Positions 28,483 to 39,324 of a stretch of 39,324 nucleotides of DNA are shown here, one piece after another. The notes beneath the pieces are model-generated. The model was not told the origin of the DNA. It did not search any database and worked only from the letters and a program-made list of their open reading frames with translations. Source of the stretch: Candidatus Omnitrophota bacterium (GTDB taxonomy: Bacteria; Omnitrophota; Gorgyraeia; Duberdicusellales; 4484-171); the NCBI GenBank assembly GCA_028713415.1, contig JAQTOI010000006.1, forward strand, positions 1 to 39,324, given 5' to 3'. How positions within the stretch are numbered: position 1 is the stretch's first letter; each line of letters starts with the position of its first letter. A program made the translations under genes and the position numbers.

Positions 28483-28510
28483 TTGACTTAAAGGAAATGA
28501 ATAGTAAAAT
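28483..28510 (+). promoter_or_regulatory. Sigma-70-type promoter of the polyketide cluster
   Basis: TTGACT (28483-28488), a 16-base spacer and TAAAAT (28505-28510) lie about 80 bases before the AMP-ligase ATG. The -10 element is inside a perfect palindrome (28498-28521). No other comparable promoter is seen between here and the right edge. Confidence 0.65.
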
Positions 28511-28521
28511 TTTACTATTCA
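28498..28521 (+). promoter_or_regulatory. Perfect 24-bp palindrome over the -10 element (operator candidate)
   Basis: The half site TGAATAGTAAAA is followed directly by its exact reverse complement, with no spacer. It covers the -10 element of the promoter, the classic place for a repressor operator. No dedicated regulator gene is visible beside it, unless it is the 27707 protein. Confidence 0.65.
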
Positions 28522-28592
28522 AATTTTCCTATTATGACCCTTAAAGTCTATATATTATAGGTAAAGAAGTAATCAGGTACGGGGGGAGCTAA

Positions 28593-30098
28593 ATGGATAT
28601 TAAGAGACTATTAACGCAGAATGCACTATCACACGCACAAAGAACCGCTGTTATTTTCGCAGATCAAAGAATAACCTTTTCCCAACTCAAAGATAATGCT
28701 TTTACTCTGGCAAATTATCTTATTGGCTGCGGCATAAAAAAGAGCGATAAAGTCGCTTTGTTTCTTTCAAGCACTCCCGATGCACTCTGCAGTTTTCTGG
28801 CAAGTTTCACTATAGGCGGAGTCCTTATTCCGCTTGATTTCATGCTTACCGAAAGCGAGGTAATCCATTTTATTAACCACAGCCAGGCTTCCGTGCTCAT
28901 CACACAGCCAAAAAAAGATGTTAGCCTTACCGCGATAAAGGCTAATTGCCCGAGCCTAAGAGAGATAATTGTCTGTAAGGCTCAAGAAGAAGGCTTTACT
29001 TCCTGGGAAAGTATTTTTGCTAAGCCCCAAACGCATGAGCCGCAAGTTTCCGTAAACGAAAGCGACCTTTCTTCTATTTTTTATACTTCAGGTTCGACCG
29101 GTCATCCCAAAGGAGTAATGCTTACCTATAAGCACCTGGACAATCCGGTTGATACCATTGATCATTTCTTAGGCGTCAGCGATAAAGATATTTTTTTGAC
29201 CGGCGGAATACCTTTCTCGCATTTAGGCGGGCTTGATTATATACTTTTGATGGTGCGCTTTGCTTCCACGCTTGTGTTGATGGAACGCTTCAACCCTCTG
29301 CAGTTCTTAAAAGACATAGAACAGCATAAAGTGACTATTTTCTGCATCGTGCCTTCAATGTATATTGCGATTGTGTCCCTAAAAGAATACGAAAAATTCA
29401 ATCTTTCTTCTTTACGCTACGCGGCTGTCTTCGGCGCCCCCTCATCTCCGGCCCTGCTGCAGCGTTTTCACGCGGCTTGCCCTAAAGCAACGGTTTTAAA
29501 CGGATGGGGAATGACTGAAACCGCAGCCCCCAATACTTACTCACCTTGTGATGAAACTAAAATAAGCAGTATAGGAAAATTTGGTTTTAGAATGACGCAT
29601 AAAATAGTCGATGATGACGGCAATCCCGTAAGTGGCTCTCAAAAAGGCGAATTGCTGGTTAAGGGTGAAGGTGTCATGCCCGGCTACTATAAAGCTCCGG
29701 ATTTAACGGGCGAAGTTTTAACGCCTGATGGTTGGCTTAGGACCGGGGATATTGCCTATTACGATAATGAGGGCCTGATTTATCTGGCAGGCAGAAAGAA
29801 AGATATGATTAAGGTTTCCGGAGAAATTGTATTTTCTTCCGAAGTTGAAGAGAAAATGCAACGGTACCCAAAGATTAAAGAGGTGGCGGTCATCGGCGTG
29901 CCTGATAAGATGCGCGGAGAAGTACCTAAAGCATTTATCGTTGCTAAAGAAAATGAGACTATTGATACGCAGGAGCTAAGAGATTTTTTAAGGGAGAATC
30001 TTGCGCATTTTAAAATACCGCATCACTTTGAGATAGTGGCTGATTTACCGAAGAATAGGGTGGGCAAGATTGATAAAACTAAATTAATTATAAAATAG
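28593..30098 (+). CDS. Acyl-AMP ligase (acyl-CoA/acyl-ACP synthetase, ANL superfamily)
   Basis: 501 residues, full length. The adenylation motifs are present: YTSGSTGHPKG (164-174), GWGMTETA (~304-311), the TGDIAYYDNEG core motif, the hinge with GRKKDMIKVSGE, and the catalytic lysine region NRVGKIDKTK near the C-terminus. The enzyme activates a carboxylic acid as the acyl-AMP and transfers it to CoA or an ACP. As first gene of the run that holds KS-alpha/KS-beta/ACP, it probably supplies a starter acyl unit, as a CoA ligase does in the Gram-negative Photorhabdus anthraquinone cluster. The starter cannot be named. It has a GGGGGGAG ribosome site and its own promoter with palindrome. Confidence 0.9.
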   Translation: MDIKRLLTQNALSHAQRTAVIFADQRITFSQLKDNAFTLANYLIGCGIKKSDKVALFLSSTPDALCSFLASFTIGGVLIPLDFMLTESEVIHFINHSQASVLITQPKKDVSLTAIKANCPSLREIIVCKAQEEGFTSWESIFAKPQTHEPQVSVNESDLSSIFYTSGSTGHPKGVMLTYKHLDNPVDTIDHFLGVSDKDIFLTGGIPFSHLGGLDYILLMVRFASTLVLMERFNPLQFLKDIEQHKVTIFCIVPSMYIAIVSLKEYEKFNLSSLRYAAVFGAPSSPALLQRFHAACPKATVLNGWGMTETAAPNTYSPCDETKISSIGKFGFRMTHKIVDDDGNPVSGSQKGELLVKGEGVMPGYYKAPDLTGEVLTPDGWLRTGDIAYYDNEGLIYLAGRKKDMIKVSGEIVFSSEVEEKMQRYPKIKEVAVIGVPDKMRGEVPKAFIVAKENETIDTQELRDFLRENLAHFKIPHHFEIVADLPKNRVGKIDKTKLIIK

Positions 30099-30172
30099 CT
30101 ATCAGTCGTCAGCCCTCAGCTTTTTAATTCTTTGCTGAAAGCTGATAGCTGTAAGCTGAAAGCTGAAACAAA
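30097..30172 (+). repeat. AGCTGATAGCTG-family hairpin repeat
   Basis: The stop codon TAG of the AMP ligase is itself the start of the repeat (TAGCTATCAG, 30096-30105). The right arm contains GCTGAAAGCTGATAGCTG and AAGCTGAAAGCTG. Here the repeat is followed by a normal AAAGGAG ribosome site. Confidence 0.75.
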
Positions 30173-30184
30173 GGAGTTAATACC

Positions 30185-30910
30185 ATGATGCAACGAGATG
30201 TACATTTACACGCGCAAGGGTTGCTTGGTTCATTACAATTTAAACCGGGAGATTTCGGAGAAATCGGCATTATCTCAGGACAGATGCAGAGAGCCCAGAG
30301 ATGCCTTCAATATCTGGAAAATCCTGTTAAGAATTTTACTTTTTTAGGCTATACTTTCTGGACCGGCACATATAAGGGGAAGAAAGTCACCGTAGGTAAC
30401 GGCGGTTTTTTTGCTCCGGATTCAGCGTTTGTTACAGAAATTTTATGCGTAGGAGGAATACAGCAGCTTATCCGTTTAGGCTCCTGCGGCGGACTTAAGC
30501 AGGAGATGACTACCGGTGATTTTGTAGTTGTGGATAAAGTGATTAGAGGAGACGGAGCGACACGCTATTACGTCGAAGATAACTTCATCCCCCAAGTTGA
30601 TAAAGGCTTAACCAAAGGGCTTGTTGAAATTTTTAAAAAAGTTGGGACAGTATATCAAGGCGCCTGCTGGACTACCGACGCCATGTTCAGGGAGACAAAG
30701 GAAATTGTTAACCCCTACATAGAAAAAGGCGCTATTTGCGTTGATATGGTAACTAGCCCCTTTGTGACTGTCGCCAATATTTATAAGAGAAAAGTTGCCG
30801 CGGTTTTGGTTATTTCCGATAACCTGATTACCGGAGAAATGGGTTTTGCTGACTTTCGGCTTTTTGAAGCGGAAGAGAAGATGACCAAGGAAGTATTTGG
30901 GATTATTTAG
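30185..30910 (+). CDS. Nucleoside-phosphorylase-superfamily protein with altered ribose site
   Basis: 241 residues with the PNP/UDP phosphorylase fold. IIS-G-QMQRA (29-37) stands where the phosphate-loop GDPxR normally is, keeping Gly and Arg. RLGSCGGL (97-104), GDGATRYY (122-129), TTDAMFRE (163-170) and VISDN (209-213) follow the family. The usual V-E-M-E, whose second Glu holds the ribose hydroxyls, is VDMV here (186-189), so the ribose contact is lost or different. The Asp of ISDN, catalytic in purine phosphorylases, is kept. It may cleave or bind a ligand that is not an ordinary nucleoside. Its place inside a polyketide run suggests a role in tailoring or precursor supply; this is inference. 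The Shine-Dalgarno sequence is strong. Confidence 0.75.
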   Translation: MMQRDVHLHAQGLLGSLQFKPGDFGEIGIISGQMQRAQRCLQYLENPVKNFTFLGYTFWTGTYKGKKVTVGNGGFFAPDSAFVTEILCVGGIQQLIRLGSCGGLKQEMTTGDFVVVDKVIRGDGATRYYVEDNFIPQVDKGLTKGLVEIFKKVGTVYQGACWTTDAMFRETKEIVNPYIEKGAICVDMVTSPFVTVANIYKRKVAAVLVISDNLITGEMGFADFRLFEAEEKMTKEVFGII

Positions 30911-30917
30911 TGCAGAT

Positions 30918-30992
30918 GCACGCAAATCTAACGCAGATTTACGCAGATAAATTATCCGCGACTATCTGCGTTACATCAGCGAGAATCTGCGT
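30918..30992 (+). repeat. ACGCAGAT/ATCTGCGT hairpin repeat
   Basis: Left words AACGCAGATTTACGCAGATAA and right words CTATCTGCGT and GAATCTGCGT are complementary. Same family as 28365-28448 and 32919-33004. A GGAG ribosome site follows. Confidence 0.75.
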
Positions 30993-31011
30993 TTTATAAA
31001 GGAGTCAAAAC

Positions 31012-31275
31012 ATGTCCGAAATAACCTGGAGCGTAAAAGCCAAAGAAATATTCGATAAAGTGATTACTAATCTTCCCCAGTTTCACCGCAGTATCGCACA
31101 AAAATTAGTGAAAGCATCAGCCGAAGAAATCGCTAAAGCCAAAGGCTTAAGCAGTGTTGAAGAAAAAGAGCTTATTGAGGCTTTTTTCAAAGAAATTCCA
31201 CCTGCATTTAAGGATATGATGAAAAGATTATTTACTAAACTTAACATTAATTATGAGCAGCATGGCATTTCTTAA
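31012..31275 (+). CDS. Stand-alone PCP_red-like small protein
   Basis: 87 residues with a clear AAAGGAG ribosome site. The first ~60 residues follow the pattern of the PCP_red domain at the C-terminus of the light-independent protochlorophyllide reductase subunit BchB/ChlB: ITWSVKAKEIFDKV, then P-x-F-x-R (PQFHRS), then a helix ending in AKGLSSVEEKELIEA. In BchB this helical domain lies next to the substrate site. Free-standing copies exist in non-photosynthetic bacteria with no known role. Its place between the phosphorylase-like and reductase-like genes suggests an accessory to redox or ligand handling in this pathway. The assignment is by pattern only. Confidence 0.65.
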   Translation: MSEITWSVKAKEIFDKVITNLPQFHRSIAQKLVKASAEEIAKAKGLSSVEEKELIEAFFKEIPPAFKDMMKRLFTKLNINYEQHGIS

Positions 31276-31314
31276 TCTGTGTAATATTTTATAGTCGCTG
31301 CAATCATTTACTTA
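31276..31314 (+). repeat. TTAATCTGTGTAAT-type short repeat
   Basis: The gap starts with TTAATCTGTGTAATATT and later has GCAATCATTTACTTAG, related to the words at 1853-1900. It leads to an ATG without a Shine-Dalgarno sequence. Confidence 0.4.
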
Positions 31315-31316
31315 GT

Positions 31317-32960
31317 ATGAAAATAGCAATCATCGGTTCAGGAGCAATAGGAGCGTTAGTCGCAGGCTACTTTAGAGAAAAAGGCGAGAGTGTAATTCTT
31401 ATCGGCCATAAAGATGCTGTTAGCGCGATAAGTAAAAACGGCCTGAAAATCAGCGGTTGCCGCGGTAATTTTAATATCAAGGTAGACATTTTTGAAAGGC
31501 TTAGCAGCAAAGTTGATTTAATAATTTTAGCCACTAAAACGCAGGACATCGAAACCGCGTTAACAGAAAGTAAAAGCTATCTAGAAAATACATTTATTTT
31601 AACCACACAGAACGGAGTGGAAGCGGACAATATCGTAGCCGGTTTTATCCCCAAAGAGAATATAATTTCAAGTATAGTAATGTTTGGCGCCACTTACTTG
31701 GAGCCGGGCAAGATAATACATAATTTTGACAGAAAATGGGTAATCGGTAAGCCGTTTAGCGAGAACGATAACTCCGTAAAAAAAATAGAAGCGCTGCTTA
31801 GCAAAATTTTCCCTGTTGAAATCAGTAATGACATCAAAGGGATGAAATGGCTTAAGGTTTTCGCTAATTCAAATAATTGTATTCCCGCCATTACCGGAAA
31901 AAGTATGCAGGAATGTTTCGCGAATGCTGAGCTTTGCGAAATAAGCATAGGGATTTGGCAGGAAGGTTTAGGCGTTATCAAAGCCTCCGGCATAAAACTT
32001 ATTGATTTGCCTGATTTCAAGGTTGAACAGGTCAGAAAACTTACCTCTTTACCCATCAGGGAAGCGGCAAGGATTTTCTCTGGGATAATGATAAATTTAA
32101 GCAAAGAGCCCTTATATGGCTCGATATTGCAGAGCATTAAACGCGCCCGGCCTTCAGAAATAGATTATATTAACGGAGCATTTGTCGCTTTGGGCAGAAA
32201 ACATTCCTATCATACGCCATTGAATAAAAAATTAGTAGAATTGGTGAAAAAGGTAGAAAAAGATAATAAATTTTTGAGCGTTGAAGAATTAATCGCAAAG
32301 ACCAAGAATTTGATTCCCCGGCAAGAAGAGGCTAGCGGCGATAAGGTTAATACGCCGTTTCCTAAGCTTAAGCTAACCGTGATGAAAGTCGAAGGTGATT
32401 GTTACCATGGATATAAAATAGGCGATGAAATAATACTGGAAGATTTTACTCATCCACCGAAACATTTCTGCCTTGGCCTGGCGCACGCCTTATTTCCCGT
32501 GATCTATGCCTTGAGTTTCGGCGCAAAATTCCCGTTTAGGGACAATCAGCGTTCTTTGCTCGTAACTTGTCCTGATGGAGGAAAACTTGAATTTAAAGCA
32601 GAAATTTTTAATAAAGAAGGAAAAATAGAAACAATAGACAAAGACCCTAACCATAAGGGGCCTAATCCCAAAGATATGATTCTAGAGGTTGTGCAGGCAA
32701 AAGGAAAATGCGCGTATAAATACAATCTTGGCGATAAATTTGAAGTTAAAGGGTTAAAGTGCCCGGAGGGCTTTTGCGGTGCAGCATATCACTGTGCGTT
32801 TCCGGCACTTTTTGCACTTAACTTCGGAGCAAAATTTTTCTTTATGGACGATCCGAATGGTATTAACACAGTAACCTGTCCGGACGGCGGGAATATTGTA
32901 TTTAAAGTGAGTAGAAAAAACGCAGATACACGCGGGAACAACGCAGATATACGCAGATAA
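31317..32960 (+). CDS. Ketopantoate-reductase-like enzyme fused to two TIGR04076-like domains
   Basis: 547 residues. The first ~330 form a PanE/ApbA-type NAD(P)-dependent reductase: the dinucleotide motif GSGAIG (7-12), LATKTQD (~78-84), TTQNGVEADN and a C-terminal helical domain with KVFANSNNCIPAITGKSM. Two copies of a ~80-residue domain follow (~349-430 and ~453-533). Both show the TIGR04076 pattern: a short strand with V..V.G.C, Y..GD, a central Cys, P...AL.FGA.F, and TCPDGG. The Cys-rich copies may bind a metal or a thiol-reactive ligand; their role is unknown. The last thirteen residues (from 535) are encoded by an intergenic repeat. The enzyme could be the ketoreductase of the polyketide run, but its own family reduces 2-keto acids, so this is uncertain. 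Confidence 0.8.
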   Translation: MKIAIIGSGAIGALVAGYFREKGESVILIGHKDAVSAISKNGLKISGCRGNFNIKVDIFERLSSKVDLIILATKTQDIETALTESKSYLENTFILTTQNGVEADNIVAGFIPKENIISSIVMFGATYLEPGKIIHNFDRKWVIGKPFSENDNSVKKIEALLSKIFPVEISNDIKGMKWLKVFANSNNCIPAITGKSMQECFANAELCEISIGIWQEGLGVIKASGIKLIDLPDFKVEQVRKLTSLPIREAARIFSGIMINLSKEPLYGSILQSIKRARPSEIDYINGAFVALGRKHSYHTPLNKKLVELVKKVEKDNKFLSVEELIAKTKNLIPRQEEASGDKVNTPFPKLKLTVMKVEGDCYHGYKIGDEIILEDFTHPPKHFCLGLAHALFPVIYALSFGAKFPFRDNQRSLLVTCPDGGKLEFKAEIFNKEGKIETIDKDPNHKGPNPKDMILEVVQAKGKCAYKYNLGDKFEVKGLKCPEGFCGAAYHCAFPALFALNFGAKFFFMDDPNGINTVTCPDGGNIVFKVSRKNADTRGNNADIRR

Positions 32961-33004
32961 ATTATCTGCGACTATCTGTGTGCAATCAGCGAGAATCTGC
33001 GTTA
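32919..33004 (+). repeat. ACGCAGAT/ATCTGCGT hairpin repeat overlapping the reductase 3' end
   Basis: The left arm (AACGCAGATACACGCGG, then AACGCAGATATACGCAGAT) lies inside the reading frame and supplies its stop codon; the right arm has TATCTGCGACTATCTG and GAATCTGCGTTAG. Third copy of this family in the window. Confidence 0.8.
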
Positions 33005-33023
33005 GCGACGAAGGAGCTTAAAT

Positions 33024-34280
33024 ATGAAACGAGTCGTCATTACAGGCATCGGTGTTATCAGCGCAGCAGGCGAGGATAAGAATACGTTTTATAATAATCT
33101 TATCGCAGGTAAGCCTTTTATCGAGCGAGTGGAGAATTTTGACGTAAGTTTGTTTGTTTCAAAAATTGCCTCGCAGGATTTGGGTTTTGATCCTTTAAAG
33201 TTTGGGATAAAAGACCATGCGCGCATGGATAGATACGTTCAATTCGGCATAGCCGCTGCAAAGCAGGCAGTCGAGGATGCAAAAATTGATTTTGACAAGA
33301 TAGATACCAGGCGCTGCGGAATAATTTTAGCTAATGCCATTTGCGGGACACGCTTTATGGAAGAAGAATTCCTTCTGGTGACTGACTGGGGCAAGAAACC
33401 CATTGACCCGCGAAAAGGCAGGCCCTATTTGTATGACGCGGCCATGTTTAATACCCCAAGTGCAGAGATTGGCGCGATATACGGCACGCGCGGCTTAAAC
33501 TGTACCGTTTCGACCGGCTGCACTGCCGCCACAGACTCACTCGGTTTTTCTTTTGAACTTATCCGCGAAGGAAAGCAGGATATGATTATTGCCGGAGGCA
33601 CAGAAGCTCCGGTCTGCCCGATAACCTTTGGCGCGTTTGATGTGGTTAACGTACTTGCGAAAAATAATGATGAGCCGCATAAAGCCAGTAGGCCTTTCGA
33701 TAATAAAAGAAACGGATTTGTCATTTCTGAAGGCGCCGGGGTTTTGATTCTGGAAGAGCTTGAACACGCAAAAAAACGCAGCGCGCACATTTATGGCGAG
33801 ATAGTCGGTTACGGCACAAGTTGCAATGCATATCACATGACGGATTTACCTGAAGATGGAGAGGCCATGGAGCGCTGCATCAGGGACGCGATAACTGATG
33901 CCGGCATAAAGAATGAAGATATAGATTATATCAATACGCATGGTTCCTCAACCCGCCAGAACGACGTATTTGAAACTAATGCCTATAAAGCAGTATTCGG
34001 CGATTATGCGTATAAACTTCCCATTAGCTCGGTTAAGGGAATGATTGGGCATCCTCTGGCAGCGGCAAATGCGGTTGAGAGTGTTTTGTGCGCGATGATT
34101 TTTGAAAAAGGTTTTTTGCCGCCTACGATAAACCAGGAAGAGCCTGACCCAAAGTGCGACTTAGACTATATTCCTAATGTAAAACGCGAGTACATGCCCA
34201 AATACATATTAAAAACAAGCAGCGGATTTTCGGGAATACATTCATCGATTATCTTTAAAAGATGGGCGCATAATAAATAA
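33024..34280 (+). CDS. Type II polyketide ketosynthase, KS-alpha
   Basis: 418 residues. The active-site Cys166 lies in STGCTAATDS, the form seen in aromatic type II PKS ketosynthases (compare STGCTSGLDS in the actinorhodin KS) and not the usual FabF form. His306 in NTHGSST, Lys338 and His343 in SSVKGMIGHPLAAA complete the set. The stretch QND..ET (312-318) and DPKCDLDY near the C-terminus are further hallmarks of KS-alpha. The enzyme extends the ACP-bound poly-beta-keto chain together with the KS-beta encoded two genes downstream. Unusually, an exported esterase gene separates the two, where actinobacterial clusters have them adjacent. A GAAGGAG site precedes the ATG. A primary-metabolism FabF is much less likely because of the matched KS-beta, ACP and aromatase. 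Confidence 0.93.
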   Translation: MKRVVITGIGVISAAGEDKNTFYNNLIAGKPFIERVENFDVSLFVSKIASQDLGFDPLKFGIKDHARMDRYVQFGIAAAKQAVEDAKIDFDKIDTRRCGIILANAICGTRFMEEEFLLVTDWGKKPIDPRKGRPYLYDAAMFNTPSAEIGAIYGTRGLNCTVSTGCTAATDSLGFSFELIREGKQDMIIAGGTEAPVCPITFGAFDVVNVLAKNNDEPHKASRPFDNKRNGFVISEGAGVLILEELEHAKKRSAHIYGEIVGYGTSCNAYHMTDLPEDGEAMERCIRDAITDAGIKNEDIDYINTHGSSTRQNDVFETNAYKAVFGDYAYKLPISSVKGMIGHPLAAANAVESVLCAMIFEKGFLPPTINQEEPDPKCDLDYIPNVKREYMPKYILKTSSGFSGIHSSIIFKRWAHNK

Positions 34281-34287
34281 TAGGCTG

Positions 34288-35319
34288 ATGATGAGAAAGA
34301 AAATCGGTATCGTTATAAGTATTATCGCTTTAACAGGAGTTTCCCTTTCCGTGGCAAATGCCCAGGGACTTTTAAGAGAAAGGATAAAAGAGAGGATTAA
34401 GGAAAGAAGAGCGGATTCCGAAAGAAAAAATGATCCCACTTTTTTTATTATGCATCAAGGGATAACAAGAGAATATAAAGTACACCTTCCTTCAGGCTAC
34501 AATAAAAACACGACTTTTCCCTTGGTAATATTCTTGCACGGAGGCGGGGGAAGCATGCAGGAAGTTTACAAAGAAGGGATGGATAAAATGTCTGACAAGC
34601 ACAGTTTTATTTTGGCAATACCCCAAGGTTCAGGTAAGAAAATATTAGGCAAAACAATCGGCTCATGGCATTCGGGAAATTGGAGCGGCTGGAGCACGCT
34701 TAACCCCGGTTCTTCCTGCTGTGGCTATGCGGGCGAAAATAATATCGATGACGTCGGTTTTATCGCAAAAATGATTACCGAAATCAAGAAAAATTATGCC
34801 GTTGATGAAAAAAGAATTTATGCCACAGGAATTTCAAACGGCGCCATGATGTCATATCGATTAGCGTGCGAACTTTCAGATACCATCGCTGCCGCAGCAC
34901 CCGTTGCTCCTCCGTTTGTGCCGGAAGTTTGCGCACAATGTCCCTTGCCTGTTTCGATAATCCATACGCAAGGCACCGCTGATCCTTGCGCGCTTTATGA
35001 AGGCGGTACATGCGACAGTTGTTTGGGAAGCAAACCCATAGCCGCGCAATCAGCGAAAGGCATGGTTAATTTCTGGGCCAAAAAGAACGCCTGTTCCACG
35101 GAGCCAACAACCATATATAAGAAAGGTAATGCACATTGTGAGCTATACGCGCAGTGCCAGGGAGGAACTGAAGTAGAATTTTGCACCATTGAAGGCGGAG
35201 GCCACACCTGGCCGGGCGGTACACAATATTTACCCGCAAGCAAGATCGGCCCAGTTTCTCATGACATATCATTTGATCAAATCTGGGAATTCTTACAAAA
35301 ACACAGGTTACATAGCTAA
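34288..35319 (+). CDS. Exported alpha/beta-hydrolase esterase, LpqC/PHB-depolymerase-like (copy 1)
   Basis: 343 residues. A signal peptide (hydrophobic ~7-23, cleavage near ANAQG) is followed by a very basic helical linker (RERIKERIKERR, 30-41) and the hydrolase domain. The oxyanion region is FLHGGGGSM (82-90). The triad is Ser183 in GISNGAMM, Asp232 in GTADPC and His306 in GGGHTWPGG. Many Cys in the second half suggest disulfide bonds in the periplasm. Relatives are feruloyl/PHB-type esterases that act outside the cytoplasm. Position between KS-alpha and KS-beta strongly implies a role linked to the polyketide, for example cleaving or transferring an ester after export. It starts seven bases after the KS-alpha stop; no good Shine-Dalgarno sequence. 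Confidence 0.85.
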   Translation: MMRKKIGIVISIIALTGVSLSVANAQGLLRERIKERIKERRADSERKNDPTFFIMHQGITREYKVHLPSGYNKNTTFPLVIFLHGGGGSMQEVYKEGMDKMSDKHSFILAIPQGSGKKILGKTIGSWHSGNWSGWSTLNPGSSCCGYAGENNIDDVGFIAKMITEIKKNYAVDEKRIYATGISNGAMMSYRLACELSDTIAAAAPVAPPFVPEVCAQCPLPVSIIHTQGTADPCALYEGGTCDSCLGSKPIAAQSAKGMVNFWAKKNACSTEPTTIYKKGNAHCELYAQCQGGTEVEFCTIEGGGHTWPGGTQYLPASKIGPVSHDISFDQIWEFLQKHRLHS

Positions 35320-35343
35320 CCATAAAATAAGCAGGAGTGATTT

Positions 35344-36576
35344 ATGAAAGAAAGAGTCGCAATTACCGGCATCGGAGTTGTTTCACCGGCAGGCTTGAAA
35401 AAAGAAACCTTCTGGGCAAATTTAAAAAGAGGCGAGTCATTTATTGATGAAATTACCCGTTTCGATACAGCGCTGTATCCTTCACGTATTGCCGGCCAGG
35501 TCCATGAGCTTGATCACTACTCGCATTTATCCAGCCGTTTAGTAAAAAAGATAGATGTTTTTTCGCATATGGCGCTGGTCGCCAGCGAACAGGCACTTCA
35601 GGATGCAAAAATAGATTTAACCATGGTCGATAAAAAACGCATGGGCGTTTTTATGGGTAATGCCATAGGCGGCTGGCTATTTGCAGAAACTGAACTGCGC
35701 GATATGTATATTGAGGGAAGAGAAGGCGTTTCTCCCTATATGGCTTCTGCCTGGTTTCCCGCAGCGCCGCAGGGCCAGATTACGATTTACTACGGCTTTA
35801 AAGGATACAGTAAAACCATAGTCGCGGATAAGGCTTCCAGCGCACTTGCTCTTTGGTACGGCGCAAAAAATATCATTGACGGAAAAAACGATTACATTTT
35901 AGCCGGAGGGATGGAAGCGCCCATTACGCCTTACGCCTTACTTAGCTCTAATTCCTGCGGTCAATTATCAAAAAATAACCTCAACCCCAAAACTGCCTAT
36001 AAGCCGTACGATTTATACCGGGACGGATTTGTGCTTGGAGAAGGCTCGGGTATCGTGAATCTTGAAAAAGAAGAACACGCCAAGAGGCGAGGCATAAATA
36101 TTTATGGGTATATTAAAGGAATAGGCTTTTCCTCGGATGGGTATCATTACTCACGTTACAGCCCGAAAAGTGAAATGTTTGAATACGCGATTGAAGAGTG
36201 CCTGAAAGATGCGGGTTGGTCAAAGAAAGAAATAGATTATATCTGCCTTGACGGTGAGGCAACACCCATGGGCGATTATCTGGAAACTAAAGCATTAAAG
36301 AACGTTTTTGGCAAAGGACTTAAAGATATCAGCTTAAGCGCGCCAAAAAGCATGTACGGCAACCTGTTGGGCGCGCAGACAGCCCTGGATCTAATCGTTA
36401 CTTTATTCTCAATGAGTAATAGCCTGGTGTTACCGACGATTAATTACCAGATGTCTGATCCATATTGCGATTTAGATTATACGCCTAACGTTGCCCGCGA
36501 GAAGAAAATAAGTAAAGCTTTATTACTTGCGCGAGGCCGAGGCGGGATAAATGTGGTGCTTGCGGTTGAAAAATAA
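35344..36576 (+). CDS. Type II polyketide chain length factor, KS-beta
   Basis: 410 residues, a ketosynthase fold with all catalytic residues lost: the Cys is Ala164 (VADKASSALAL), the first His is Asp303 (ICLDGEAT) and the second is Asn340 (KSMYGNLLG), while Lys335 is kept. His-to-Asp and the C-terminal LLLARGRGGIN, equivalent to the LVLARGRWGFN of actinobacterial chain length factors, show that this is a true KS-beta. Typical KS-beta carries Gln at the Cys position; Ala is unusual. It should form a heterodimer with the KS-alpha (33024) and set chain length. A GGAG site lies before the ATG. The esterase gene on each side is the oddity of this operon. Confidence 0.92.
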   Translation: MKERVAITGIGVVSPAGLKKETFWANLKRGESFIDEITRFDTALYPSRIAGQVHELDHYSHLSSRLVKKIDVFSHMALVASEQALQDAKIDLTMVDKKRMGVFMGNAIGGWLFAETELRDMYIEGREGVSPYMASAWFPAAPQGQITIYYGFKGYSKTIVADKASSALALWYGAKNIIDGKNDYILAGGMEAPITPYALLSSNSCGQLSKNNLNPKTAYKPYDLYRDGFVLGEGSGIVNLEKEEHAKRRGINIYGYIKGIGFSSDGYHYSRYSPKSEMFEYAIEECLKDAGWSKKEIDYICLDGEATPMGDYLETKALKNVFGKGLKDISLSAPKSMYGNLLGAQTALDLIVTLFSMSNSLVLPTINYQMSDPYCDLDYTPNVAREKKISKALLLARGRGGINVVLAVEK

Positions 36577-36599
36577 GCCACAACTGTATTTTCTAAAAA

Positions 36600-37613
36600 A
36601 TGTTTAACATACAATCAAACCCAAAGATATGGCTTAAATTTATTATTGTTATAATCATTTTACTCTCATGCCCTATTTTTATCTATGCGCAAACAAGACT
36701 TGGAGAAAGGATACGTGAAAAAATTAATCAAAGGCGTCAGGACCGCATAGCAGAAGAAAGCCTTATCGGTCAAGACATTGAGAAATCAATCGTAGTTGAT
36801 GGAATTAAAAGAACTTATATTATCCATTTGCCCCCACGATACAAGAAAGTTAAAATCTACCCTATCGTATTTGTTTTCCATGGCGGAGGCGGAAACGCTG
36901 AGAATGCAATAATGATGAGCGGGATGAGCGAAAAAGCAGATAAAGAGGGCTTTATCGTTGTCTACCCCAACGGTACCGGAAGATTCAAAAACCGTTTTCT
37001 TACCTGGAACACGTGGAATGGTTGCGGGTATGCCTTCGAGCAAAACGTCGACGACGTTAAATTTATAAACAATCTTATTGAAAAGTTAGGGAAAGAATTG
37101 AATGTAGATTCTAAACGCGTATTCGCTGCCGGCATGTCAAACGGAGGAATGATGGCATATCGATTGGCCTGCGAATGCTCAGATAAAATCGCGGCCATCG
37201 CCTCTGTTTCTGGGGCACTCAATAGTGAAAATCCGAATCCCGCCTTTCCAGTCTCGATTATCGCATTCCACGGCACGGCTGATAACAATGTGCCTTATAA
37301 CGGCGGCACTGGAAAGAGATCTATCGAAAAAAACAGGGTTGATAAGCCCGTTTCTTACGCAATAAATTTTTGGGTTAAATACGATGGATGTAACACAACA
37401 CCTATTCGAGAAGAATCAGGAAATATTATTCAAGAAAGATACACAGGCGGAAAGGAAGGAACTGAAGTGCTGCTTTATACGGTAAAAGGCGGCGGCCATG
37501 CCTGGCCAGGCGGAAAGGCTGGTCGGACCAGTGGCAACGTGGATCAACCAACACAGGAGATTTCTGCCACTGATCTTATGTGGGAATTTTTCCAAAAACA
37601 CCCAAAACCTTAA
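36600..37613 (+). CDS. Exported alpha/beta-hydrolase esterase, LpqC/PHB-depolymerase-like (copy 2)
   Basis: 337 residues and a paralogue of the 34288 protein. The signal peptide (~11-30, IYAQT end) is followed by a basic linker (RLGERIREKINQRRQDR, 33-49), similar to copy 1. Catalytic residues: FHGGGG (93-98), Ser180 in GMSNGGMM, Asp228 in GTADNN, His300 in GGGHAWPGG. Copy 2 has fewer Cys than copy 1. Both copies flank KS-beta, which suggests duplication within the cluster and a specialised pair of activities. The linker may bind an anionic surface or partner. There is no Shine-Dalgarno sequence. Confidence 0.83.
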   Translation: MFNIQSNPKIWLKFIIVIIILLSCPIFIYAQTRLGERIREKINQRRQDRIAEESLIGQDIEKSIVVDGIKRTYIIHLPPRYKKVKIYPIVFVFHGGGGNAENAIMMSGMSEKADKEGFIVVYPNGTGRFKNRFLTWNTWNGCGYAFEQNVDDVKFINNLIEKLGKELNVDSKRVFAAGMSNGGMMAYRLACECSDKIAAIASVSGALNSENPNPAFPVSIIAFHGTADNNVPYNGGTGKRSIEKNRVDKPVSYAINFWVKYDGCNTTPIREESGNIIQERYTGGKEGTEVLLYTVKGGGHAWPGGKAGRTSGNVDQPTQEISATDLMWEFFQKHPKP

Positions 37614-37636
37614 GTATAATCCTAAAGGAGGAAACC

Positions 37637-37867
37637 GTGGCAATAAAAGAAGAAGTCTTAAGCGCAATCGCTGACATTCTTGATGTGGATGCTGCAAAAG
37701 TAACGGCAGATAAGAAGTTATATGACTCAATAGGCGTGGATTCAACCGAGATGGTTGAGCTCTGTGTATCTTTGGGTAAGCGTTTCGGAGTAAAAATCGC
37801 TACCAATGAAATTACAAAGTTTTCAACACCGCTTGAGATTATGCAGGTGATTGAGAAGAAAAAATAA
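37637..37867 (+). CDS. Acyl carrier protein of the type II polyketide system
   Basis: 76 residues starting at GTG 37637, seven bases after AAAGGAGG; an upstream ATG in the same frame (37580) lies inside the previous gene and lacks such a site. The phosphopantetheine serine is Ser36 in GVDSTEMVEL, in the usual D-S-x-x-x-V/L setting. Four-helix length is normal. The adjacent KS-alpha, KS-beta and cyclases make this the carrier of the growing polyketide. No phosphopantetheinyl transferase or malonyl transferase is seen in the window, so these must be elsewhere (possibly the fatty-acid enzyme is shared). Confidence 0.92.
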   Translation: MAIKEEVLSAIADILDVDAAKVTADKKLYDSIGVDSTEMVELCVSLGKRFGVKIATNEITKFSTPLEIMQVIEKKK

Positions 37868-37944
37868 ATAGCTATCAGCTTACAGCTGTCAGCTATCAGC
37901 TCAGAACCAAGAGGCTGAAGACTGAAAGCTGACGACTGATAGCT
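37868..37944 (+). repeat. AGCTGATAGCTG-family hairpin repeat
   Basis: Outer arms AGCTATCAG (37870-37878) and CTGATAGCT (37936-37944) are perfect complements, with AGCTGTCAGCTATCAGCT and AGACTGAAAGCTGACGACTG words between. It ends nine AT-rich bases before the cyclase ATG, which has no Shine-Dalgarno sequence. Confidence 0.8.
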
Positions 37945-37953
37945 CATTATATT

Positions 37954-38751
37954 ATGCAAATCATTGACCTAAGCCTTCCCATTGACGATAAAGCTTTTGA
38001 GGTGCATCACGTAGAGATTGAGCGTGTAACGCACAAGGCTGGCGTTGAGAAGTTCAACCGTGTGCTGATGAGTAAAACCCTCAAGGGCAAACTACAATAT
38101 CTTTTGGGTAAGCGTATAGTTAAAAAAGAAGATTTACCCGATGAAGAGTTTTTATCTTTAGAAATAGTGCATTCCCCGGTGCATATCGGAACGCACCTTG
38201 ATTATTCGTTTCATTACGGTTCAAAATCAGAAGGAAGAGCTTCTAAAACTGCCGAAGAAATCCCTTTAGAGTGGTGTTATCAGGACGGCGTAAAGCTTGA
38301 TATGGCGCATAAAAAGCCGGCTGAAGCAATAAATGCATCTGATATTGAGGCGGCCTTAAAAAAAATAAACTATACGCTTAAGCCCCTTGATATTGTACTA
38401 ATTCAAACAGGTGCTGATAAACTTTATGGTGGCCCTAAATATTTCAGCGACTATCCCGGCATCGACGTTTCGGCGATAAATTTTCTTTTGGATAAGGGCA
38501 TTAAAATCTTTGGCGTGGATACCATGGGCATAGACAGGCCGTATCGCTTCATGCTCAAAGAATTCATGGAGACAAAAGACCCGAAAAAATTATACCCGGC
38601 ACATTTTTACGGCAGAAAAAGAGAGTTTATCCACATAGAGCGATTGGCGAATTTAGAAAAATTACCCAGTTTTGGTTTTAAAATCAACTGCTTTCCGGTG
38701 AAAATAAAATGTACCGGAGCAGCTTGGGCAAGAGTAGTGGCTATTTTATAA
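37954..38751 (+). CDS. Cyclase-family metal-dependent hydrolase (kynurenine-formamidase fold)
   Basis: 265 residues. The metal-site motif H77-x-G-T-H81-x-D83-x3-H87 (HIGTHLDYSFH) is exact for Pfam Cyclase (PF04199). Other family parts are VDTMGIDRP and an aligned His/Glu later in the chain. The family includes kynurenine formamidase as well as proteins named cyclases in antibiotic clusters. Here, right after the ACP and before an aromatase, a ring-closing or product-modifying role in polyketide folding is likely, but hydrolysis of an ester or amide is also possible. The start follows a hairpin repeat. Confidence 0.85.
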   Translation: MQIIDLSLPIDDKAFEVHHVEIERVTHKAGVEKFNRVLMSKTLKGKLQYLLGKRIVKKEDLPDEEFLSLEIVHSPVHIGTHLDYSFHYGSKSEGRASKTAEEIPLEWCYQDGVKLDMAHKKPAEAINASDIEAALKKINYTLKPLDIVLIQTGADKLYGGPKYFSDYPGIDVSAINFLLDKGIKIFGVDTMGIDRPYRFMLKEFMETKDPKKLYPAHFYGRKREFIHIERLANLEKLPSFGFKINCFPVKIKCTGAAWARVVAIL

Positions 38752-38754
38752 TTA

Positions 38755-38890
38755 GAAGCAGAATGTTGCGGATACCTACGCGGAGACACGCGGAAATTTT
38801 CAGCGTTTATCCGTCCGCCTTCGGCGAGATCTCGCCTCAACTTAAGCTGAGGCGGACGTTTTGCTCCGCGTCGATCCGCTTCTACAATAC
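38755..38890 (+). repeat. Nested palindrome before the aromatase gene
   Basis: CGTCCGCCT/AGGCGGACG is a perfect 9-bp stem (~38811-38819 with ~38851-38859) enclosing GGCGAGATCTCGCC, a 14-bp perfect palindrome. AGAAGC(..)GCGGAT at the left pairs with ATCCGCTTCT at the right (~38873-38882). It is a compound structure with a normal GGAGG ribosome site after it. Confidence 0.65.
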
Positions 38891-38902
38891 GGAGGTGAAT
38901 AA

Positions 38903-39324
38903 ATGGGCCATACAGCAAATTCCATAGTTATCAACGCTCCATATGAGAAAATATTCGATATTTCTAACGATATCACCCGCTGGACAGAACTATTCGGAGG
39001 AGAGTATAAAAAGTCGGAAGTAGTAAAAAAAGAAGGTAACAAAATAACGTTTAAGCTTGCTGACGATGAAGGCCGCTCGTGGCAGTCATGGCGCCTGTTA
39101 TTTAAAGATAAATACCTGGCCTACGCAGAGAGAGAAGAACCGAAATTCCCTTTTAAGTTTATGAAAATTATCTGGCTTTATACGCCGCGTCAAAACGGAA
39201 TTGAATTGACCTGGATTCAGCATTTTGAAATGGATGAAAAAGCAAAATTTAACGATGAACAAGTAGAAGGGTTCATTAACAAGCATTCGAAAGATAATTT
39301 GAAGATATTTAAGGAAGTTATTGA
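38903..39324 (+). CDS. Polyketide aromatase/cyclase, SRPBCC superfamily, WhiE-ORFVI-like (3' partial)
   Basis: The ATG at 38903 follows ACGGAGG by eight bases. The frame stays open for 140 residues to the right edge, so the gene is truncated by the window. The protein starts MGHTANSIVINAP and continues with DISNDITRWTELF, SWQSWR, FKFMKIIWLY and LTWIQHFEMD, the order and spacing of single-domain aromatases of spore-pigment and tetracenomycin-type clusters (compare GHTDNEI, TNDIERWPELF and W-Q-x-F-x-M of WhiE ORFVI). Such enzymes bind the reactive poly-beta-keto chain in the helix-grip fold and close the first aromatic ring. This is the strongest single clue that the product is aromatic. Missing length is probably small (~15 residues). 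Confidence 0.9.
   Translation, partial: MGHTANSIVINAPYEKIFDISNDITRWTELFGGEYKKSEVVKKEGNKITFKLADDEGRSWQSWRLLFKDKYLAYAEREEPKFPFKFMKIIWLYTPRQNGIELTWIQHFEMDEKAKFNDEQVEGFINKHSKDNLKIFKEVI

Follow-up and report, generated by a model that had tools for sequence, protein, structure and literature searches.

Does the run of plus-strand genes that closes a contig of a Candidatus Omnitrophota bacterium encode an aromatic polyketide pathway and, if so, with which partners and in which relatives? Type II aromatic polyketide synthases (PKSs) are the kind used by Streptomyces for tetracycline-like molecules, and their study has been almost confined to actinobacteria, where tailoring mostly uses O2. The stretch of DNA analysed here, hereafter the window, covers all of contig C6 (JAQTOI010000006.1; 39,324 nucleotides) of a genome of 2.17 Mb that is 94% complete and distributed over 160 contigs; from 28593 to the window end at 39324 its genes lie on the + strand, from a ligase gene through the start of a gene for an SRPBCC protein. 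A first-pass annotation, made from the sequence alone, had read this run as a type II aromatic PKS cluster in a Gram-negative, Omnitrophota-like host. Our results uphold the cluster by the tree placement of its two ketosynthases (KS), by their active-site residues and by the linkage of a TcmN-type aromatase; all the genes named were found on the + strand at the positions given, and the host assignment agrees with close matches that come nearly all from Candidatus Omnitrophota.

Results

The ketosynthase pair

The catalytic ketosynthase, KS-alpha, was confirmed by alignment to have an intact active site, with Cys166 in STGCT, His306 in HGSST and His343 in IGHPL, and the Cys-His-His set is kept in all 13 Omnitrophota KS-alpha proteins aligned. 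KS-beta, or chain-length factor (CLF), has Lys, Asp and Asn at the corresponding positions, as expected from the annotated loss of all three residues; these were likewise gone in all 13 Omnitrophota KS-beta proteins examined, with Lys or Arg replacing the Cys. A phylogenetic tree of 56 rows was built with these 13 KS-alpha and 13 KS-beta sequences, 11 type II KS-alpha and 9 CLFs, the remainder being FabF enzymes, aryl-polyene (APE) KS (two E. coli CFT073 sequences only, both on long branches) and other KS of the window's genome. KS-alpha was placed within the type II KS-alpha group (support 98/95) and KS-beta within the CLFs (100/100), with FabF and APE outside in both cases. The annotation had itself raised a grouping with FabF or APE enzymes as the outcome that would speak against it; such an identity was rejected on this placement.

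The sister group of KS-alpha was formed by AntD and an Azospirillum sequence (weak support, 81/79), and its best match in the PDB was 6smo chain B (365 bits), which we take to be AntD, the ketosynthase of the Photorhabdus anthraquinone PKS; the best PDB matches of KS-beta were FabF enzymes. Neither protein reached the cut-off of the FabF equivalog model TIGR03150 (452.6 versus 493.75 for KS-alpha). At the CLF Cys position, the non-actinobacterial references (Azospirillum, Apilactobacillus, Priestia, Staphylococcus and Lactobacillus) carry Lys or Arg, and the Streptomyces references Gln or Glu; the actinobacterial-type Gln/Glu replacement was found in none of the Omnitrophota KS-beta, 13/13 having Lys/Arg. 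On the evidence available, sequence comparison thus identifies the pair as genuine type II PKS enzymes.

Elsewhere in the window's genome (L097, G000:C89, 3121-4359), a gene for a further KS-like protein, whose active site has decayed to Tyr/Cys/Glu, precedes one for an autotransporter-domain protein, and relatives hold runs of KS genes at other places (e.g., four in G017:C23); a second KS-derived system may exist.

Carrier protein, cyclase and aromatase

The annotated acyl carrier protein (ACP) is present, with a PP-binding match and the attachment Ser in DSIGVDS, although its start in the open reading frame list (37580) is probably not the true one: the GTG at 37637, behind the Shine-Dalgarno sequence AAGGAGG, is the likelier one. 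A phosphopantetheinyl transferase gene lies elsewhere in the genome, on contig C45. The cyclase-family protein proved to belong to PF04199; it was present in 27/29 loci of the window's own family or order and in 11/11 loci of other families, and it probably acts as a later-ring cyclase.

The last gene of the window is cut by the contig end, and its identity was approached through an orthologue in another genome (L046:12542-12979; 65% identical), which matches Polyketide_cyc2. Seven TcmN/WhiE-type cyclases of the PDB were matched by this orthologue at E values of 8e-33 to 1.7e-27 (8e-33 to TcmN), and nothing besides such cyclases appeared below E = 0.1. Furthermore, 17 positions of the alignment are invariant across the Omnitrophota, Firmicutes and Streptomyces members. 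The annotation had called the protein WhiE-ORFVI-like, with an unrelated SRPBCC member as the outcome to be feared; the only credible PDB matches being of TcmN/WhiE type, the name stands. Some loci of relatives encode, beside the 87-aa protein PCPr described below, an extra 150-aa protein (aro2) that is absent from the window; it has no Pfam match, its predicted fold is confidently SRPBCC/Bet v 1-like, and judging by this model it may be a second aromatase.

Layout and completion of the locus

The features of the window are collected in Table 1. Contig C6 ends, inside the aromatase gene, in 127 bases that are repeated exactly at the beginning of contig C131; such an overlap is the usual mark of an assembly-graph break, and C131 continues the locus, which provides the extension to the right that the annotation had proposed. 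C131 completes the aromatase gene and then carries genes for an MFS exporter, an SDR and a B12-binding radical S-adenosylmethionine (SAM) enzyme. An isomerase, an aldolase and an aldehyde dehydrogenase are encoded on contig C102 of the same genome (G000); no end overlap was found between C131 and C102, the last 127 bases of C131 occurring in C131 alone. In relatives the locus comprises 15-19 genes, adding a decarboxylase-like amidohydrolase and a phosphorylase/isomerase/aldolase/aldehyde-dehydrogenase set. The same gene order, for which a search in related genomes had been suggested, recurs in >25 other genomes; therefore, the arrangement is not due to chance.

Table 1. Protein-coding features of the PKS locus within the window.
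Feature	Position	Strand	Basis
LIG, AMP-dependent acyl ligase	28593..30098	+	PF00501 274 bits, PF13193
PNP, nucleoside-phosphorylase-superfamily protein	30185..30910	+	PF01048 118 bits
PCPr, 87-aa PCP_red-like protein	31012..31275	+	sub-threshold PF08369 and DUF2621 matches
PanE/ApbA (ketopantoate-reductase-like) reductase with two TIGR04076 repeats	31317..32960	+	PF02558, PF08546, TIGR04076
KS-alpha, catalytic type II PKS ketosynthase	33024..34280	+	Cys/His/His intact; KS-alpha clade 98/95
EST1, exported polyhydroxybutyrate (PHB)-depolymerase-like esterase	34288..35319	+	NF050058 153 bits, cut-off 150
KS-beta/CLF	35344..36576	+	K/D/N at Cys/His/His; CLF clade 100/100
EST2, exported PHB-depolymerase-like esterase	36600..37613	+	NF050058 184 bits, cut-off 150
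ACP	37637..37867	+	PF00550 40.7 bits; attachment Ser in DSIGVDS
PF04199 'putative cyclase'	37954..38751	+	PF04199 104.5 bits
TcmN/WhiE-type aromatase/cyclase, cut by contig end	38903..39324	+	orthologue matches, A2 alignment

LIG reaches no NCBIfam cut-off and was present in 21/29 own-family or own-order loci, many of these being truncated; by analogy with AntG of Photorhabdus, a proposed starter-loading ligase (PMC6638757), it would load or activate an acyl starter. In the fusion protein, TIGR04076 was matched in two stretches from about 32349 (99.5 bits versus a cut-off of 33), each repeat having three invariant Cys; the reductase and TIGR04076 are two separate genes in most relatives. The tandem TIGR04076 domain (32349-32957) gave a confident AlphaFold (AF2) model (pLDDT 88.6), and a comparison with the PDB returned no match in sequence or in fold (best E 0.75); the repeats are perhaps an unrecognised metal or Fe-S domain.

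Two features of the annotated cluster were not sustained. The esterases, listed there as members, occur in 3/29 own-family or own-order loci (the window, L039 and L040) and in 0/11 others, and they are missing from the same-genus genome G001; their absence from most relatives led us to reject them as core genes, and by their distribution EST1 and EST2 are a local, lineage-specific insertion. The single promoter assigned to the run is likewise unsupported, since the window has 22 promoter-like sites versus 22.9 expected in shuffled sequences; the site at 28483 ties for best (10/12 match), within a total at chance level. No RNA or tRNA features were found in the window.

Distribution and inheritance

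KS-beta was detected in 136/384 sampled Omnitrophota genomes, drawn evenly across the phylum, and in 94/283 genera, using a threshold of E <= 1e-110. Within the window's own family an orthologue was present in 27/35 genomes (one partial), and outside its order the orthologues are mostly 53-61% identical. In the 11 loci from other families the genes are largely the same, though rearranged; a class IV aminotransferase was recognised only within the own-family or own-order loci.

In 40 genomes, the identity of concatenated KS-alpha and KS-beta followed RpoB identity (Mantel r 0.83, with 0/2000 permutations as high). This value is probably understated, because the KS-alpha entry of genome G122 was wrong (a KS-beta frame) and the pairs involving it are the largest outliers. 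Apart from G294 and family f2, the main groupings of RpoB reappear in the KS-beta tree. In G122, the single contig C1 has two sites, one at 436 kb (L196) for KS-alpha, TIGR04076, PanE and PCPr and one at 990 kb (L100) for KS-beta, ACP, cyclase and aromatase, the genes being kept though split. Across many Omnitrophota families, this set of genes has been retained and has for the most part been passed down the lineage; descent accompanied by numerous losses and a few transfers is the best fit, which suggests an old pathway.

RpoB of the window's own class showed a peculiarity: unlike the proteins of f31 and f55, that of most cluster-carrying lineages matches TIGR02013 in two stretches, with model positions ~220-297 unmatched, perhaps owing to a lineage-specific deletion or rearrangement.

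Radical-SAM enzyme and oxygen

The best NCBIfam match of the B12-radical-SAM protein is BchE (TIGR02026), and its nearest PDB relative is an apramycin biosynthetic radical-SAM enzyme. In locus L059, the radical-SAM protein ends in a fused PCPr (residues 494-575; 42.7% identity, 3.7e-21), and in other families the PCPr gene often adjoins the radical-SAM gene; by this fusion and neighbourhood, PCPr is a probable partner of the downstream enzyme. BchE accomplishes ketone installation and ring closure without O2 (PMC13142503), and therefore, by analogy, the polyketide could plausibly be oxidised in an O2-free manner, methylation being equally possible.

No monooxygenase, dioxygenase or cupin was recognised among the scanned locus proteins. 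Haem-copper oxidase was missing in 34/40 carriers, including all 11 own-family carriers tested, in a search that covered COX1 and not cytochrome bd; six carriers do have COX1, which shows that likely respirers can hold the cluster too.

Salvage-like genes

PNP has 5'-methylthioadenosine phosphorylase 1jds as its best PDB match (5.8e-22), was linked in 26/29 own-family or own-order loci, and is a putative 5'-deoxynucleoside phosphorylase by homology. The linked isomerase is MtnA-like, the class II aldolase carries an SCP2 domain, and the aldehyde dehydrogenase that follows matched several models, none above its cut-off. These genes are the immediate upstream neighbours of the radical-SAM gene in several families. 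The dihydroxyacetone phosphate (DHAP) shunt converts 5'-deoxyadenosine, a radical-SAM by-product, to DHAP and acetaldehyde (PMC8102628, PMC10986504), and the phosphorylase, MtnA-like isomerase and class II aldolase expected of such a pathway are linked here, being missing from some loci. We tentatively propose that the set would recycle the 5'-deoxyadenosine released by the radical-SAM enzyme, in the manner of that shunt, to DHAP and a two-carbon unit.

On C102 (L194, 1930-3834), genes for an LsrF-like thiolase (NF006081, 361.5 bits versus a cut-off of 297) and a zinc alcohol dehydrogenase stand between those for the class II aldolase and the aldehyde dehydrogenase. This set is possibly an acetyl-CoA-forming variant of 5-deoxyribose-phosphate catabolism, in which 5-deoxyribulose-1-phosphate would be oxidised at C4 to a substrate of LsrF and then cleaved to DHAP and acetyl-CoA.

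Comparison with known systems

The ant system of Photorhabdus luminescens (AntD/E/F and AntG) shares with the Omnitrophota locus a minimal PKS in a Gram-negative host and an acyl ligase linked to it; AntH is reported to be a tridomain aromatase, and AntI a hydrolase for release or final ring formation (PMC6638757), whereas the Omnitrophota locus has a single-domain TcmN-type aromatase, a PF04199 cyclase, a B12-radical-SAM enzyme, PNP and TIGR04076. The plasmid-borne clusters of the Firmicutes Apilactobacillus kunkeei, Priestia megaterium, Staphylococcus saccharolyticus and Lactobacillus gasseri also bring together KS-alpha, KS-beta, ACP, AMP-ligase, a PF04199-like cyclase and a TcmN-like aromatase, their CLFs have Lys/Arg in place of Cys, and genes annotated as 'cyclase family protein' or 'kynurenine formamidase' adjoin the aromatase gene. 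They differ from the Omnitrophota locus in having methyltransferases and, for the most part, cupins and alpha/beta hydrolases, and their annotated stretches hold no radical-SAM, PNP/isomerase/aldolase or TIGR04076 genes.

The Streptomyces tetracenomycin and WhiE systems (TcmN, WhiE ORFVI) share the aromatase family and the minimal PKS logic; they differ at the CLF Cys position (Gln/Glu there, Lys/Arg in Omnitrophota), and the Streptomyces clusters examined carry oxygenases, which were not recognised in the Omnitrophota locus. With respect to BchE, an anaerobic Mg-protoporphyrin monomethyl ester cyclase, the locus differs in having no recognised tetrapyrrole genes, and the substrate of its radical-SAM enzyme is presumably a polyketide. 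As for the DHAP shunt of Rhodospirillum rubrum and E. coli ATCC 25922, in which a phosphorylase or kinase, an MtnA-type isomerase and a class II aldolase yield DHAP and an aldehyde (PMC10986504, PMC8102628), the likeness lies in the three enzymes; unlike it, the candidate Omnitrophota shunt sits inside a polyketide locus and has an aldolase fused to SCP2 and an added aldehyde dehydrogenase.

Discussion

The linkage of a minimal PKS with a TcmN-type aromatase, a PF04199 cyclase and an AMP-ligase, followed downstream by an exporter, an SDR and a B12-radical-SAM enzyme, makes it likely that the window holds the first half of a type II aromatic PKS locus whose linked genes have the roles proposed here, the product and the tailoring mechanism being ones that we infer. 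In such a pathway, the ligase would prime the ACP or make the starter, KS-alpha and KS-beta would extend it with malonyl units, and the SDR and PanE would reduce the chain, which the aromatase and the PF04199 protein would fold and dehydrate into fused aromatic rings. Formation of an aromatic core by the minimal PKS, SDR, aromatase and PF04199 cyclase would follow the established logic of type II systems. The Amidohydro_2 protein may, from its family, decarboxylate the ring or aryl acid; the BchE-like B12-radical-SAM enzyme and PCPr would oxidise, cyclise or methylate the product without O2, and the MFS protein would export it.

Several points weigh against this reading or parts of it. The KS tree was limited to 56 rows, with few Gram-negative references and some weak inner forks, and KS-alpha exceeds the cut-off of the FabF subfamily model NF005589 (433.9 versus 387). 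The radical-SAM protein, which might instead be a methylase, is far under the BchE equivalog cut-off (178 versus 481 bits). In this genome, the locus has its second half divided between C131 and C102, which are not joined. Some loci (e.g., L049, L057 and L109) had no recognised salvage genes, so that the link of these genes to the PKS is not obligatory. As to inheritance, f2 nests within f1, and G294 conflicts with RpoB, by transfer or mis-binning. Furthermore, we know of no cultured member of the group. With regard to G294 (family f35), two f1-type copies of the cluster (L060 and L066; contigs C19, C61 and C92) are found against its RpoB position.

Among the alternatives, the one that best withstands the evidence accepts the type II PKS and takes its product as a core, non-exported component, such as a quinone-like electron carrier or a membrane pigment, instead of a secreted metabolite. 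This would agree with the mostly lineage-following inheritance and the retention across the window's family, with the genes kept in G122 despite their split over two chromosomal places, with the SCP2 lipid-carrier domain of the aldolase, and with the patchy quinone pathways reported for the phylum (PMC10066038). Nevertheless, most complete loci include a linked MFS exporter gene, the cluster is not universal, being absent from many of the phylum's genomes, and no prenyltransferase was seen in the locus; we regard such a product as possible, if on the unlikely side.

The salvage-like set might instead build an unusual starter or a sugar-derived unit, for which the fluorometabolite and chloroethylmalonyl pathways offer a precedent. 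In many families the set accompanies the PKS, at positions that vary, the AMP-ligase could activate an acid made by the aldehyde dehydrogenase, and the LsrF-like thiolase of the window's genome would give acetyl-CoA; yet no halogenase or other 5'-modifying enzyme was recognised in the locus, and salvage of 5'-deoxyadenosine needs no extra enzyme, because its radical-SAM partner is linked. A starter-building role is thus unlikely. Finally, a fatty-acid or APE-type duplication, in which two FabF-like KS make a saturated or polyene fatty acid, is highly improbable: both KS match many FabF models, as the NF005589 score and the PDB matches of KS-beta illustrate, but the tree keeps them outside FabF and APE, KS-beta has none of the catalytic residues, a TcmN-type aromatase and a PF04199 cyclase are linked, no dehydratase was seen in the locus, and the genome has separate FabF-like KS of its own.

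Returning to the type II aromatic PKS locus, a bolder extension would combine an ancient inherited pathway, a BchE-like B12-radical-SAM enzyme and PCPr replacing O2-dependent tailoring, a built-in salvage to DHAP and a two-carbon unit, and a core-component product, such as a pigment, a redox carrier or an envelope compound, that is not an antibiotic; as a whole we hold it to be rather improbable.

In a 2023 catalogue, 'Candidatus Omnitrophica' is one of 14 phyla for which KS-CLF pairs are recorded (PMC10132072), so the mere presence of such pairs was already known. The literature searched yielded no account of the cluster, of where it occurs or of its partners, and the word polyketide is absent from the main Omnitrophota genome survey (PMC10066038); the conserved partner set, its breadth and inheritance, the Lys/Arg signature of the CLF, and the linked radical-SAM and salvage modules are undescribed in that literature.

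Our results indicate that a type II PKS, with a recurring and different set of partners, has been retained by many families of an uncultured phylum that mostly lack haem-copper oxidase, and that its roughly lineage-following inheritance contrasts with the patchy spread usual for such clusters. The locus provides a testable case of O2-independent tailoring of aromatic polyketides and of a CLF lineage marked by Lys/Arg, and it may illustrate a general principle, namely that a pathway can carry the salvage of its own radical-SAM by-product.

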